NCBI RefSeq assembly: GCF_030813915.1
Contig: NZ_JAUSUJ010000007.1
Location: 1-64,000, forward strand
Direction: 5' to 3'
DNA: 64,000 nucleotides
DNA from: Rhodoplanes tepidamans
Lineage (GTDB): Bacteria; Pseudomonadota; Alphaproteobacteria; Rhizobiales; Xanthobacteraceae
Positions 26,144-64,000 of this stretch are shown here, piece after piece (the first letter of the stretch is position 1; every line of letters starts with the position of its first letter). The notes below the pieces were generated by a model. That model ran no database searches. It worked only from the letters and a program-made list of their open reading frames with translations, and was not told the DNA's origin. Made by a program: the position numbers and the translations under genes.

Positions 26144-28006
26144 ATGTCCATCACGTCTCTCGGCTCCTCGTCCTCCCGCACGCGCATGTCCGGCGGCAGG
26201 CCGACACCGACCCGCCCTGCCCCGCGGTTCGGGCCGCAGCTCGATCGGGGCGGCGTGCGATTCCGCCTGTGGGCTCCCCGTCACGACCGCATCGACGTCG
26301 ACCTGCCGGAGACGAGCCGCCGGATCGCCATGACGCCCGGTGCGGACGGCTGGCACGAGGCGTTCGTCGCCGACGCCGGCCCCGGGACGCGCTACCGCTT
26401 CCTGCTGCCCGACGGTCTCGCGGTGCCGGACCCCGGATCCCGCTTCCAGCCCGACGACGTGCACGGGCCGAGCGAGGTGATCGATCCCGATGCCTATGCG
26501 TGGACGACGGCCGGCTGGCACGGCCGGCCGTGGCACGAGGCCGTGGTCTACGAGCTGCATGTCGGCACCTTCACGCCCGAGGGGACGTTCCGGGCCGCGA
26601 TCGAGAAGCTGGACCATCTCGTCGATCTCGGCGTCACGGCGATCGAGCTGATGCCGGTCGCCGACTTCCCGGGCCGGCGGAACTGGGGCTACGACGGCGT
26701 GCTGCCGTTCGCCCCCGACGCCGGCTACGGGCGGCCCGAGGATCTCAAGGCGCTGATCGACGCCGCGCACGGCCGCGACCTGATGGTGCTGCTCGACGTC
26801 GTCTACAATCACTTCGGGCCGGACGGAAACTACCTCGCCGCCTATGCGCCGATCTTCACCGAGCGGCACCACACGCCGTGGGGCGCAGCCGTCAACTTCG
26901 ACAGCGACGGGGCCGACATGGTGCGGGCCCTGGTGATCGAGAACGCGCTCCACTGGATCGACGAGTTCCGTTTCGACGGGCTGCGGCTCGACGCCGTGCA
27001 CGCGATCCTGGACGACAGCGACGAGCATGTCCTCCACGCGATCGCCGCCGCGGCCCGCACCGCGGCGCCCGAGCGCCACGTGCACCTGATCCTCGAGAAC
27101 GAGGAGAACGAGGCGCATCTGCTGGCCCGCGACGCCGACGGCGGCGCGTCGCTCTACACGGCGCAGTGGAACGACGACGTCCATCACGTCCTGCACTGCG
27201 CCGCGAGCGGCGAGTGCGCCGGCTATTACGCCGACTACGCCGGCGACACCGACAAGCTCGGCCGCGCGCTGGCCGAGGGCTTCGCGTTCCAGGGCGAGGA
27301 GATGCCGTATCGCGGCTCGCCGCGCGGCGAGCCGTCGGCGGATCTGCCGACCACCGCCTTCGTGTCCTTCGTCCAGAACCACGACCAGGTCGGCAACCGC
27401 GCCTTCGGCGACCGCATCACGGCGTTCGCGCCGGCCGCGGCGGTGCGCGCGGTCACCGCCGTCTATCTGCTCCTCCCTCAGGTGCCGATGCTGTTCATGG
27501 GCGAGGAATGGGCCGCGACGGAACCCTTCCCGTTCTTCTGCGACTTCACCGAGCCGCTGGCGAGCGCGGTGCGCGAGGGACGCCGCGCCGAGTTCGCCCG
27601 CTTTCCCGAGTTCCACGATCCCGCCCAGCGCGACCGCATCCCCGATCCGACGCTCGCCGAGACCTTCCTGTCGGCGAAGCTCGACTGGAGCGCCCTCGCG
27701 CAGCCGGAGCACGCCGGCTGGCTCGCCGTCTATCGCGACCTCCTCGCCGTGCGGCATCGCGAGATCGTGCCGCGGCTCGCCGGAGCGGGCGCCGGGCGAT
27801 GGACCGTCCTCGGTCCGGGGACCGTCGCGGTCGACTGGATGCTGCGCGACGGCACGCTGCGGCTGGTCGCCAATCTCGCATCCGGCCCGCGCGCGGAGAT
27901 CGGCCTTCCGGCCGGCCGGCGCCTGTGGACCGAGGGGACGGTCGGCCCGCAGGGCCTCGGTCCGTGGAGCGTGGTGTGGGCGATCGACGACGGCACCGCC
28001 CCATAA
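26144..28006 (+). CDS. treZ: Malto-oligosyltrehalose trehalohydrolase
   Basis: A 620-residue GH13 enzyme that releases trehalose from maltooligosyl-trehalose. An N-terminal CBM48/E-set domain (GGVRFRLWAPRHDRIDV) precedes the catalytic barrel with VVYELHVGTFTPEGTF, LLDVVYNHFGP, the nucleophile motif FRFDGLRLDAVHAI, the acid/base ILENEENE and FVQNHDQVGNRA. These are TreZ signatures. Its usual partner treY is not in the window, so the substrate maker must be elsewhere. ATG 26144 was used; ATG 26186 (MSGGRPTP) is an alternative. Probably under stress control. Confidence 0.94.
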   Translation: MSITSLGSSSSRTRMSGGRPTPTRPAPRFGPQLDRGGVRFRLWAPRHDRIDVDLPETSRRIAMTPGADGWHEAFVADAGPGTRYRFLLPDGLAVPDPGSRFQPDDVHGPSEVIDPDAYAWTTAGWHGRPWHEAVVYELHVGTFTPEGTFRAAIEKLDHLVDLGVTAIELMPVADFPGRRNWGYDGVLPFAPDAGYGRPEDLKALIDAAHGRDLMVLLDVVYNHFGPDGNYLAAYAPIFTERHHTPWGAAVNFDSDGADMVRALVIENALHWIDEFRFDGLRLDAVHAILDDSDEHVLHAIAAAARTAAPERHVHLILENEENEAHLLARDADGGASLYTAQWNDDVHHVLHCAASGECAGYYADYAGDTDKLGRALAEGFAFQGEEMPYRGSPRGEPSADLPTTAFVSFVQNHDQVGNRAFGDRITAFAPAAAVRAVTAVYLLLPQVPMLFMGEEWAATEPFPFFCDFTEPLASAVREGRRAEFARFPEFHDPAQRDRIPDPTLAETFLSAKLDWSALAQPEHAGWLAVYRDLLAVRHREIVPRLAGAGAGRWTVLGPGTVAVDWMLRDGTLRLVANLASGPRAEIGLPAGRRLWTEGTVGPQGLGPWSVVWAIDDGTAP

Positions 28007-59926: not shown

Positions 59927-60172
59927 CGCCGCATCGCTCCCAAGCGCGAGGTGGCGCACGGGGCGCCGTCGGCGGATATGTGGGGGCTCCCGACCCGGGT
60001 GCAATCCGGTGCGGCAGGATATGCCGCGGCGTCGCCCCGCCGGTAATCCTGCGCCGCGGCGGCCGCGCCGCCGATCTGCGCGCTTGCCGGCCGGCGCGTC
60101 CCGGCGCATAGGCGGGGCCCGCGGTCCTGCCGCCCTCCGCCCGTCCCCTGCCCGCCCGGTGTCCTCCTCCCC

Positions 60173-61561
60173 ATGCCCCTCTCCCGCGAGCGCATCGTTC
60201 CCTTCGTCGTCGCGGTCGCGCTGTTCATGGAGAACATGGACTCGACCGTGATCGCCACCGCGCTGCCGGCGATCGCGGCCGACATCGGCACCTCGCCGAT
60301 CGAGCTGAAGCTCGCCATCACGTCCTACCTGCTGGCGCTCGCCATCTTCATCCCGACCAGCGGCTGGATGGCCGACCGGTTCGGCGCGAGGACCATCTTC
60401 CGCAGCGCCATCGTGGTGTTCGTCGCCGGCTCCCTCGCCTGCGCCGTGTCGCAGGAGCTGTGGCACTTCGTGCTGGCCCGGTTCCTCCAGGGCATCGGCG
60501 GCGCCATGATGAGCCCGGTCGGCCGGCTGGTGCTGATCCGCGCCGTCGACAGGAGCCGGCTGGTCGACGCCATGGCGCTGGTCACCCTGCCGGCGCTGAT
60601 CGGCCCGCTGCTCGGGCCGCCGCTCGGCGGCTTCATCACCACCTTCGCGAGCTGGCACTGGATCTTCATCATCAACGTGCCGATCGGCGTGGTCGGCTTC
60701 CTGATGGTGACGGCCTTCGTCGAGAACGTGAGGAGCGAGGTGCCGGAGCCGTTCGACGTCCCCGGCATGGCGCTGGTGGCGCTCGGCATCGGCGGGCTCG
60801 CCTTCGGCTCGACGGTGAGCACGGTGGCGTTCGTGCCGGCCTGGGTCGCCGCCGCCCTGCTGGCGCTCGGCGCCGCCGCGACCGCGACCTATGTCGTGTA
60901 TGCGCGCCGCGTCGCCAACCCGGTGATGGACCTGTCGCTGTTCGCGCTGCCGACCTTCCGGGCCGGGGTCGCCGGCGGCTTCGTGTTCCGGGTCGGCGCC
61001 GGCGCGCTGCCGTTCCTGCTGCCGCTGATGCTGCAGGTCGGATTCGGCATGACGCCGTTCGAGTCCGGCATGGTGACGTTCGCCACCGCGTTCGGCGCCA
61101 TGGTGATGAAGACCCTGGTGCCGCGCATCCTGCGCCGCTTCGGCTTCCGCCTCGCCATGACGGTCAACGCCCTGCTCGCCGCCGTGACGATCGGGGCGCC
61201 GGCGCTGTTCTCGCCCGGCACCCCGGTGTGGATCATGATCGCCGTGCTGCTGGTCGGCGGCCTGTTCCGCTCGCTGCAGTTCACCAGCGTCAACACCATC
61301 GCCTTCGCCGAGGTGGAGCCGCGCCGGATGAGCCGGGCGACGTCGCTCGCCAGCGTGTCGCAGCAGCTCTCGGTGTCGACCGGCGTCACCATCGGGGCGC
61401 TGGCGCTGGAGATCGCCATGGCGGCGCGCGGCGACACGGCGCTCACGGCCGCGACCTTCCCGCCCGCCTTCGCCACCATCGCCCTGATCTCGGCCTCCGC
61501 CGCGATCCTGTTCGCGATGATGCCGAAGGACGCCGGGGCCGAGATGGCGCAGCGGAAGTGA
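60173..61561 (+). CDS. DHA2-family MFS multidrug efflux protein (EmrB/QacA type)
   Basis: A 462-residue, about 14-helix transporter. FMENMDSTVIATALPAIAAD is the first-helix motif of the DHA2 group, with WMADRFGARTIFR (motif A) and LARFLQGIGGAMMSPVGRL (motif B) and PLLGPPLGGFI (motif C) after it. Substrates are unknown; antibiotics and biocides are typical. No regulator or adaptor (EmrA) gene adjoins it. It is followed immediately by a palindromic repeat. Confidence 0.92.
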   Translation: MPLSRERIVPFVVAVALFMENMDSTVIATALPAIAADIGTSPIELKLAITSYLLALAIFIPTSGWMADRFGARTIFRSAIVVFVAGSLACAVSQELWHFVLARFLQGIGGAMMSPVGRLVLIRAVDRSRLVDAMALVTLPALIGPLLGPPLGGFITTFASWHWIFIINVPIGVVGFLMVTAFVENVRSEVPEPFDVPGMALVALGIGGLAFGSTVSTVAFVPAWVAAALLALGAAATATYVVYARRVANPVMDLSLFALPTFRAGVAGGFVFRVGAGALPFLLPLMLQVGFGMTPFESGMVTFATAFGAMVMKTLVPRILRRFGFRLAMTVNALLAAVTIGAPALFSPGTPVWIMIAVLLVGGLFRSLQFTSVNTIAFAEVEPRRMSRATSLASVSQQLSVSTGVTIGALALEIAMAARGDTALTAATFPPAFATIALISASAAILFAMMPKDAGAEMAQRK

Positions 61562-61573
61562 GTTTTTGGAACT

Positions 61574-61678
61574 CGTAGGGTGGGCAAAGCCGCGCAGCGG
61601 CGTGCCCACGCCGTCCCCTTTGCCGCTGCGGACCGCGTGGGCACGGCGCGCCTTCGGCGCACCTTTGCCCACCCTACG
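61574..61678. repeat. 105-bp palindromic element, copy A
   Basis: Perfect 16-bp terminal inverted repeats CGTAGGGTGGGCAAAG / CTTTGCCCACCCTACG bound an imperfect palindrome with inner arms GTGCCCACGC / GCGTGGGCAC. Copy B at 63087-63192 is the same over both ends with only central differences. Such elements are widespread intergenic repeats in Rhizobiales, with no coding capacity. Confidence 0.9.
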
Positions 61679-61782
61679 ACGATCCGGCGACGCTCGCTGA
61701 AGTCCAGGGCGGGGAAGCGTATTCTTGAATCTCACAGCGCCAGCTACGGTGGCCGAGCATCGAATCGAGAGAAGGACCAGCG

Positions 61783-62004
61783 ATGGGCGACGCAATCACC
61801 AAGGACAGCAACGGCAACCCGCTCGGCGACGGCGATTCGGTGACCGTGATCAAGGATCTGAAGGTCAAGGGCACGTCGGAGACGATCAAGCGCGGCACGC
61901 TCGTCAAGAACATCCGGCTGACCGGCAATCCCGGCAAGGTCGAATGCAACACCAAGCAGGTCAAAGGCCTCGTGCTGAAAACGGAGTTCCTCAAGAAGGC
62001 ATAG
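61783..62004 (+). CDS. Short PhnA/YjdM C-terminal domain protein (73 aa)
   Basis: A 73-residue protein matching the PhnA C-terminal barrel: DSNGNPLGDGDSVTVIKDLKVKG (as GNPLGDGDSVTVIKDLKVKG), GTLVKNIRLTG and VKGLVLKTEFLKKA. Full-length YjdM/PhnA has an N-terminal zinc ribbon that is missing here; short forms of the domain exist elsewhere. Despite the name, a role in phosphonate use is not established. AAGGA ribosome site. It sits between two palindromic element copies. Confidence 0.85.
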   Translation: MGDAITKDSNGNPLGDGDSVTVIKDLKVKGTSETIKRGTLVKNIRLTGNPGKVECNTKQVKGLVLKTEFLKKA

Positions 62005-62082
62005 CCCCGCTTTGCGGGTCCGCCGGGCGCGACAGCGAAGCGCATTGCGCCGAAACGTCTGCGCCGGCGGCGATGCCGAGAC

Positions 62083-62113
62083 GGCGGAATACGCTTCGCT
62101 GTTCCGCCCTACG
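62083..62113. repeat. Short dispersed palindrome (GGCGGAA/TTCCGCC)
   Basis: GGCGGAA-N12-TTCCGCC followed by CTACG. This is a fragment of another well-known Rhizobiales intergenic repeat (ends in CCGCCCTACG). One copy in the window. Confidence 0.55.
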
Positions 62114-62199
62114 AGGAACCGGGGTACGCTTGCTTAGGCAATACTGAAACGAAGTCGATTCGAGGCTCGCCGAGTGAGCACTTCCCCGCGGAAGCGTCC

Positions 62200-63078
62200 A
62201 TGCAAAATGAGCAAGAACGGCGTGAGTTGGCACGACTGCACTTGGATGCGGTGGAAATTTGGCTGCGCCGAATCATAAACCAATAATTAACGAGGTTTTT
62301 TGGGCAGGACTATTGGAATGCGAGGTTTTCTGCCGATCAGCAGGCAATAATTCCGCCGAGAGTCCGGGACCGTGTTACGAAAAGGCAGGCGGCAGAACCC
62401 GACCGCTTCAAACGGCCCCTGGAAGCAATCACGTTCGATGATGCTATTGACATAGTACTGCATCAACGGCCTTTTCCGGAATACTTTCGACCTGCACTTA
62501 GCGCCGCCTTCTCCGACGGATCAGCGGAAGCGCGCACATTTCTTTCACGCCTAAAATCGCACCGCGACCAACTCGCCCACGGCGGCATCTGCAGCCAGCG
62601 CTGCCTTGAGCAATGTATTTGCTATTCGAACGATGTGATCGACTCACTCAAGGCACACTTTCGGGAACTGAAGATGGAGCAAATATTTAACGTTCCAAGA
62701 TTCATTCACGCTATCGACAACAAAGGAAATGATTTCAGCCTGGATATCGAAAAAGAACAAGGTCAATTCGTTGATCGCTGGACGCGCGGCAAGGGAGATC
62801 TCTATATTGGAGAATGCCTTGTAATCGAGGTTGAGGTAGACGAGAGCTTCTCTGATTTCACAATAGAATGGTTTTCATTCAACGGCGACCGCGGTAATGG
62901 AAAGGTTGCAATCATCGCGATCGAGCCCAAACATGTTGGAATTCAAATGGATGTCAGATTTGAGTTAAGATCGAAGGAAACTTGGCATCGCTTGCATGGC
63001 GGCATAGACGATATGCTTGATATTCGCTATCGTGTTTTCCCGCCAACCCAAGCGATTAATGACGCCAAGCCTCGGTAG
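62200..63078 (+). pseudogene. HEPN (Swt1/RiboL-PSP-like) domain gene interrupted by one in-frame TAA
   Basis: From ATG 62200 the frame reads MQNEQERRELARLHLDAVEI then WLRRIINQ, meets TAA at 62284-62286 (codon 29), and continues open in the same frame for 263 codons to 63078. The downstream part reads like protein: LEAITFDDAIDIVLHQRPF, FSDGSAEARTFLSRLKSHRD and QLAHGGICSQ, containing RDQLAH (Arg122, His127), the RX4H motif of HEPN ribonucleases, then YSNDVIDSLKAHF and a C-terminal beta-rich region. No ATG or GTG lies between the stop and codon 146 (GTG 62635). Codons are AT-richer than neighbours, a sign of transfer. A GTG-initiated C-terminal fragment (62635-63078) would lack the HEPN motif. 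Confidence 0.8.
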
Positions 63079-63086
63079 CAGCAGAG

Positions 63087-63192
63087 CGTAGGGTGGGCAA
63101 AGCCGCGCAGCGGCGTGCCCACGCCGTCCACCCTCGCCGCCCCCGACCGCGTGGGCACGGCGCGCCTTTGGCGCACCTTTGCCCACCCTACG
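63087..63192. repeat. 106-bp palindromic element, copy B
   Basis: Same 16-bp terminal inverted repeats and inner arms as copy A, same orientation, with a diverged centre. Its right end overlaps the last codon and TAG stop of the minus-strand rlmE gene, so the element supplies that stop. Confidence 0.9.
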
Positions 63193-63874
63193 CGTCGGAG
63201 ACCTGCCGGAACCCCATCGCCAGAACATAAAGCTCGGCCGAGTCGGCGCGGCTGGCGGCGGGCTTGACGTGCTTGACCTTGGCGAAGTCGCGCTTGAGGT
63301 CGGCCAAGAGGTCGCCCTCGGTGCCCCCGCGAAGAACCTTGCAGAGGAACGATCCGCCGGGGTCGAGCACCTCGCGGGCGAACATCGCGGCGGCTTCGGC
63401 GAGCGCCATGATCTTGAGGTGGTCGGTCTGGCGGTGGCCGGTGGCGTTGGCCGCCATATCGGAGAGGACGACGTCGGCGGGGCCGCCGAGCAGCGCCTTC
63501 AGCCGGTCGGGGGCGGCGGGGTCGAGGAAGTCGAGATGCAGCACGTCGACCCCGACGATCGGCGGCATGTCGAGGATGTCGATCGCCACGACCCGGCCTT
63601 TGCCGGCCTCGGCGCCGACCCGCTTGGCCGCCACCTGGCTCCAGCCGCCCGGCGCGGCGCCGAGGTCGACGACGCGGCCGCCCGGCCGGAACAGCTTGAA
63701 GCGGTCGTCGAGCTCGATCAGCTTGTAGGCGGCGCGCGAGCGGTACCCCTCGCGCTTCGCCCGCGCCACATAGGGGTCGTTGAGCTGCCGGTCGAGCCAC
63801 AGTTTTTGGGCCAGGGTGCGGCCCTTGCGCTTCTTGACCTGGACTTTGAGGGGGCGGCTGCGGTCGGTGGTCAT
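63188..63874 (-). CDS. rlmE: 23S rRNA U2552 2'-O-methyltransferase RlmE (RrmJ/FtsJ)
   Basis: A 228-residue FtsJ-type methyltransferase. A basic N-terminus ([15 protein letters not shown]) is followed by [19 protein letters not shown] (catalytic Lys), the SAM motif [32 protein letters not shown] (catalytic Asp), and [12 protein letters not shown] (second Lys). It methylates U2552 in the 50S A-loop. ATG 63874 gives the usual length; the longer frame begins without a family match. Its 3' end lies in a palindromic element. Confidence 0.94.
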
Positions 63875-64000
63875 CGGGTGGCGATCTCGGGGTCGGTGGC
63901 GCGCGCAATCGAGGTCGGGCGCTCTCGCATGAGCGGCGTCATGCGCGGGCTCGACCCGCGCATCCATCCCTGCGCAAGACGGTTTTCTGCGTCGAGTGCT

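Follow-up and report, generated by a model that had tools for sequence, protein, structure and literature searches.

The question raised by the right-hand part of this window (the whole stretch of 64,000 nucleotides of Rhodoplanes tepidamans DNA that was analysed) is whether a reading frame interrupted by one stop codon represents a real gene that has been lost and, if so, what kind of gene it was. On the forward strand, translation of 62200-63078 gives an ATG with 28 codons, a premature TAA at codon 29 (62284-62286), 263 sense codons (30-292) and a terminal TAG, that is, 292 codons plus TAG with a single in-frame nonsense codon. The other two forward frames of the same DNA contain 12 (+1) and 16 (+2) internal stops, and no more than one internal stop was found in just 5 of 20000 first-order Markov simulations that used the gene's own dinucleotides; therefore the open frame is not a product of chance. 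The GC content of the gene is 49.3%, versus 71.5% for the window, in agreement with an earlier note on this DNA, which had described the gene as AT-richer than its neighbours. The 40 clear genes of the window end in TGA (32), TAG (7) or TAA (1).

With the residues after the stop as query, protein searches of plasmids, phages, genome_contigs and viral_contigs returned no relative, a search of 149 related genomes matched the genome itself alone, and the class (385 genomes) and phylum (398 genomes) samples gave matches at chance level. We inspected 16 of the 30 weak loci from these two samples; the matching frames there look unrelated (one of them we take to be ClpP-like), and the family profile missed these loci in the same phylum sample. 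In order to find homologues, we searched with a degenerate pattern built from the residues WH[RK]..DD..Y.V.P of the C-terminal part. In viral_contigs this pattern matched eight stretches, one of which encodes a true homologue (L080); a narrower version matched 50 stretches in genome_contigs, and 18 of these encode homologues with E below 1e-5, a value that is relative to the small set of frames and not to the whole collection. A first C-terminal pattern and a stricter one matched nothing, the two matches of a HEPN-motif pattern were due to chance, a two-row alignment scan returned just the contig already found, and neither the plasmid searches with the family proteins L094 and L134 nor the phage searches with L130 and L094 produced a match. 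Since the search pattern selects for the C-terminal motif, the invariance of that motif is partly by construction; the invariance of the WLRR and RX4H motifs described below is not.

We aligned the family in 18 rows, three of them partial, so that 15 rows are full-length including that of R. tepidamans (alignment A3). The column of the stop codon is variable, and each of the 15 full-length rows has an entry there (X in R. tepidamans); the disabling TAA thus lies within a region homologous to the open frames of 14 full-length relatives, as expected of a pseudogene. The earlier note had read codons 1-28 and 30-292 as one protein in the same frame and had named homologues that begin naturally downstream of the TAA as the observation that would speak against this. 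No such start was found: helix 1 (residues 4-27) is encoded before the TAA, which lies just past it, the tetrapeptide WLRR (residues 21-24, 62260-62271, forward strand) is upstream of the stop and invariant in full-length members, and the two copies from Bradyrhizobium start within one residue of the R. tepidamans ATG. Identity to one of these (L134) is 15/27 over residues 1-28, 59/126 over residues 30-156 and 64/127 over residues 157-285, and is no lower before the stop than after it. After the TAA there is no in-frame ATG, GTG or TTG before codon 146, a GTG at 62635-62637 (forward strand). Because the alignment crosses the TAA and no start is available until codon 146, past the HEPN motif, the gene is broken, and recently. 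Homology before and after the stop thus bears out the earlier description of an HEPN-type gene broken by a single nonsense codon, and we conclude that 62200-63078 does read as one protein interrupted by a single TAA.

The gene carries one stop and no frameshift. Of its 2619 possible single substitutions, 105 would create a further stop; therefore about 73 neutral substitutions (8.4% divergence) would give another stop with a 95% chance, an estimate that ignores frameshifts. Relative-rate counts against L134 reveal no significant excess of change on the R. tepidamans branch for 11 of 13 outgroups, and an excess with the other two (L092, p 0.033; L099, p 0.001). When changes were counted at three consensus thresholds, the results were 3 versus 1 (p 0.63), 8 versus 1 (p 0.039) and 15 versus 11 (p 0.56), so that extra change on the R. 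tepidamans branch is seen at one threshold of the three. The R. tepidamans protein keeps 34 of the 37 columns that are invariant in the other full-length rows. At columns with at least 85% conservation it retains 53/73, a smaller share than any other of the 15 (next come L112 with 55/71 and L134 with 60/72). Judging from these comparisons, the break looks young, with some indication of relaxed constraint, in line with a recent inactivation, one of the options in the earlier note; because of the extra change on the branch and the lowest share of conserved columns, the break may be older than its single stop suggests.

We examined the protein architecture with an AlphaFold2 run that used A3 as its alignment (mean pLDDT 90.0, pTM 0.63); a single-sequence model (mean pLDDT 43.4) and the fold search based on it were of no use. 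The N-terminal HEPN part (residues 1-156, 62200-62667, forward strand) is predicted with high confidence to be almost wholly helical over residues 4-156. It carries the RX4H motif from R122 to H127 (62563-62580, forward strand), whose R and H are invariant in 18 of 18 rows; both residues are where the earlier note had placed them, and the motif agrees with the RX4-6H catalytic motif of the HEPN superfamily. The C-terminal part (residues 162-283, 62683-63048, forward strand) is modelled as an Ig/PKD-like beta-sandwich and bears the family signature WHR..DD..Y.V.P. A PDB fold search matched roughly residues 162-283 to beta-sandwiches of the Ig/PKD type, the best being 6v8o_H (Z 9.5, rmsd 2.7, 99 aligned residues), along with a PKD match to 4jrw_A (Z 8.7, rmsd 2.5, 85 aligned), and the best Foldseek E was 1.4e-3. 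Because best Z scores of 7 to 8 are usual without relationship, according to the search tool's own note, these matches indicate a common fold and not a function. In a viral-library fold search the named best matches were mostly Ig-like or capsid-decoration proteins. No HEPN structure appears in the PDB fold lists, which are filled by the Ig-like domain and therefore provide no argument against HEPN.

The affiliation of the helical part comes from profile comparison. Against seven Swt1-like HEPN domains, hhalign gave a probability of 95.5% (E 1.4e-8, residues 4-148), versus at most 0.9% for 100 column-shuffled control alignments, and it placed R122 and H127 on R and H of the seven sequences, which pass the PF18731 cut-off; for just the columns as far as the stop, too few to judge by, the probability was 0.8%. 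HEPN_Swt1 (PF18731) is matched by 7 of 14 members with a best E of 3e-4, which we infer to lie under the 27.5-bit cut-off, and by the R. tepidamans protein not at all at E up to 10. The family thus probably stays below the curated PF18731 cut-off and is related to PF18731 at the level of profiles. In Pfam the R. tepidamans protein touches DUF6217 only (E 0.023, under the cut-off), and one member touches Ig_3 (E 0.062). In PADLOC, PDC-M34B is matched by 5 of 14 members (best E 6.7e-5) and not by the R. tepidamans protein, and single members match DUF1156_MTase (8.1e-4) and AbiD (0.0064). NCBIfam (best E 0.08) and PHROGs gave no match under E 0.05; the PHROGs family 'abortive infection resistance protein' is touched by 4 of 14 members, at best with 0.071. 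The earlier note had named both Swt1-like HEPN and RiboL-PSP-HEPN as possible homologues: the former is the nearest HEPN branch found, and the latter is not among the matched Pfam families. By predicted structure and profile similarity, the family pairs a Swt1-related HEPN domain with a C-terminal Ig/PKD-like beta-sandwich.

The homologues are spread over Pseudomonadota, Bacillota, Verrucomicrobiota and Bacteroidota, with further copies in Ignavibacteriales and Candidatus Cryosericum. Among the 149 relatives of R. tepidamans the family profile matched one genome, its own, and in the phylum sample 2 of 398, namely its own and G544, where the match is short and partial (positions 36-92, 20.2 bits, E 6.1e-4). 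In Bradyrhizobium the family is present in 2 of the 252 genomes searched. Both copies are intact; a 'TAG' flagged in a Bradyrhizobium gene is taken as that gene's own end because the genus search reported none there. These are the closest copies, identical to ours at 139/280 and 135/281 residues, and a comparison of the two gives dN 0.15 and dS 1.73. In the tree, the R. tepidamans copy and L134 are sisters (100/100), and rows from Verrucomicrobiota and Pseudomonadota interleave (for example L128 with L087, 98/93), which argues for horizontal spread.

The locus in R. tepidamans itself has the appearance of an insertion site. The gene is surrounded by what we take, from their translations, to be MFS, phnA-like and rlmE genes. 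Comparison of 60000-64000 with the closest congener (L059) by blastn shows that 62135-63103 is absent there, its 969 nt being replaced by 121 nt in the congener; no gene other than the HEPN gene was recognised within this stretch. In the congener the phnA-like gene is 94% identical and the 121-nt spacer between it and rlmE is HEPN-free. In three further genomes (G002, G003, G004) the gap from the MFS gene to rlmE measures 454, 1641 and 784 nt, with no phnA-like match in it, and the family profile found no match in five congeners, one of which is 58% complete.

We examined the genomic neighborhoods of the relatives, where 23 different neighbor proteins were scanned, some of them against one library only. 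The Paenibacillus copy (L080; L118 is the same protein) sits downstream of integrase, tail, amidase and holin genes in a prophage. In both Bradyrhizobium loci the end of the HEPN gene abuts the end of another gene, with a tRNA gene no more than 0.8 kb further on. In one of them (L135) the stretch before the HEPN gene matches a terminase and a primase-polymerase gene is found further up; in the other (L185) a primase-type gene shares 52% identity over 351 residues with its L135 counterpart, and the gene adjoining the HEPN gene is terminase-like by eye only. This composition suggests a prophage- or satellite-like element, possibly a phage satellite or a prophage remnant. We sought a remnant of such an element in the R. 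tepidamans window, where the HEPN gene alone matches. Elsewhere, one copy (L130) lies 0.9 kb from GajA-GajB, and other neighbors include a resolvase (L089), ribonucleotide reductase, which L128 follows, an AraC-type regulator (near L112) and a hydrolase gene (near L109). In total, just five copies have phage or known defence genes beside them, and the scanned neighbors of L110 (two), L109 (two), L094 (one) and L128 (one) include no known phage-defence gene. As separate observations, primase-type, terminase-type and HEPN genes stand near a tRNA-Lys and a tRNA-Arg gene at L135 412-7371 and L185 2786-8390; at L135 the terminase match overlaps the next open frame, which lies in a different reading frame; and at L099 2271-3985 a 265-residue gene and then the HEPN gene come directly after BrxL, a possible BREX accessory pair.

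Could a working product still be made, or did the gene die for want of a partner? We consider it unlikely that the gene is intact and its TAA an artefact of sequencing or assembly: the draft genome comprises 63 contigs and the gene otherwise looks intact at its invariant columns, but in our judgement a substitution error that lands exactly as a stop should be rare in a draft with a completeness of 100. Recoding or readthrough of the UAA, which would still yield the full-length protein and which the earlier note had proposed to check by way of a suppressor tRNA, is scarcely credible. TAA ends just one of the 40 clear genes of the window, so that the cost of a weak reassignment would be low; against this, none of the 45 places in the genome that match RF00005 reads UAA (ARAGORN assigned an anticodon at 44 of them, none being UUA), TAA still terminates a 620-codon gene at 26144-28006, and no aligned relative has a stop in the variable column concerned. 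UAA followed by U terminates well. ARAGORN called one further weak tRNA gene, beside L161. Since tRNA-Ile is absent among the 45 matches, some tRNAs may be unassembled. The 45th match, a tRNA-like sequence at G000:C23:79721-79791 (L180) with an anticodon UGU by eye and an imperfect acceptor stem, was not called by ARAGORN. Very improbable, too, is a shorter working protein from a start after the TAA, such as the Ig-like domain alone from GTG 62635: this frame of 147 codons is open, but its product would be without the HEPN motif, inspection by eye shows no clear ribosome-binding sequence before the GTG, and the 18 genome loci hold no member consisting of the Ig-like domain only, apart from cut, broken or unclear pieces (L115, L113 and L100, the last completed as L134, are cut by a contig or locus end; L106 is frameshifted; and L093, at a contig start, apparently changes frame).

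The earlier note had reasoned that inactivation would make sense if a partner had been lost. HEPN toxins are often paired with MNT antitoxins, according to PMC7641770, and the family shares an HEPN-type motif with these toxin-antitoxin systems. However, no adjacent MNT antitoxin gene or other recurrent neighbor was found at the 18 family loci: in an all-versus-all comparison of the frames around them the HEPN gene alone recurs, bar two short, weak matches of 41 and 45 residues, and the two Bradyrhizobium loci have phage-type genes in common and no small partner. Judging from sequence, the HEPN and Ig-like family is rare, horizontally spread and solitary; loss of a partner is therefore unsupported, and we regard it as very doubtful that the gene was half of such a pair. 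We favor, with a probability of roughly 0.7, the reading that a horizontally acquired, solitary HEPN ribonuclease gene, likely anti-phage cargo, was inserted beside rlmE and later inactivated by the nonsense codon at position 29. Our verdict is that the loss of function of this acquired gene is real and young.

In order to place the family among known systems, we compared it with described HEPN proteins. Its profile-profile match is to Swt1-like HEPN (PF18731), placed in an Abi2/Swt1 branch by Anantharaman et al. 2013 (PMC3710099); that paper's main text contains none of the words Ig-like, immunoglobulin and beta-sandwich. Tha-1, as described in PMC11087260, is likewise a single prophage-borne protein (301 residues) with an HEPN ribonuclease, an RX4H motif and a second region, but its HEPN domain is C-terminal and that of the family here is N-terminal; the resemblance is one of plan only. 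In Tha-like defence a phage tail protein switches on the HEPN RNase. DS-11 of DefensePredictor, as described in PMC13092281, is also a single-protein anti-phage system in which a regulatory domain is coupled to HEPN, the regulator being a CBS domain there and an Ig/PKD-like domain here. PDC-M34B, a candidate defence family of PADLOC, is matched weakly by the five members mentioned above, and a literature search on the term PDC-M34 found no paper. Passages of a BREX survey (PMC12839542) report standalone HEPN genes beside BREX and suggest that Ig-like domains there sense foreign proteins; these passages do not describe the HEPN plus Ig-like protein. Among the listed titles and abstract openings of open-licence texts, none describes the HEPN plus Ig-like architecture.

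The RX4H motif, the domain plan, a context that is solitary and in part mobile, and the examples of Tha and DS-11 lead us to propose a triggered HEPN mechanism. The gene would travel as cargo of prophage- or satellite-like elements, with a function that is most likely anti-phage. Intact members would be dimeric HEPN ribonucleases that stay inactive until a sign of infection, such as a phage structural protein, reaches the C-terminal Ig/PKD-like domain; the triggered dimer would then cut RNA and phage growth would stop. Given the sequences, the model and these analogies, the intact family is most likely a one-gene, infection-triggered ribonuclease. In the R. tepidamans lineage the gene would have been inserted beside rlmE and subsequently inactivated by the single nonsense mutation at codon 29; translation would end after 28 residues and leave no working enzyme, so that most likely the enzyme is not made from this genome. 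More tentatively, and as something we hold to be possible rather than probable, the intact family may be an undescribed single-gene anti-phage system in which the Ig/PKD-like domain both holds the HEPN domain and senses a phage structural protein, its loss here being recent.

As an event, the broken gene is ordinary, an accessory gene that was gained and then silenced. Its value is that it uncovered an unnamed, rare and solitary HEPN plus Ig-like family, distributed over distant phyla and matched no more than weakly in Pfam (E 3e-4 at best) and PADLOC (6.7e-5 at best), whose intact members are available for phage-defence tests.

Other copies and repeats provide some minor observations. The copy in Candidatus Cryosericum (L106 4210-5121, reverse strand) is a second broken one, frameshifted into three pieces. 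At L093 (1-737, forward strand), which begins at a contig start, the frame apparently changes by eye within the first 25 bases, so this is either an assembly edge or another broken copy. In R. tepidamans the HEPN gene is flanked by two copies of a palindromic repeat of about 105 nt (61574-61678 and 63087-63192), which are in the same orientation and 93% identical. The repeat is REP or MITE-like and has dozens of full or partial matches across the genome, both strands counted, as well as in congeners.
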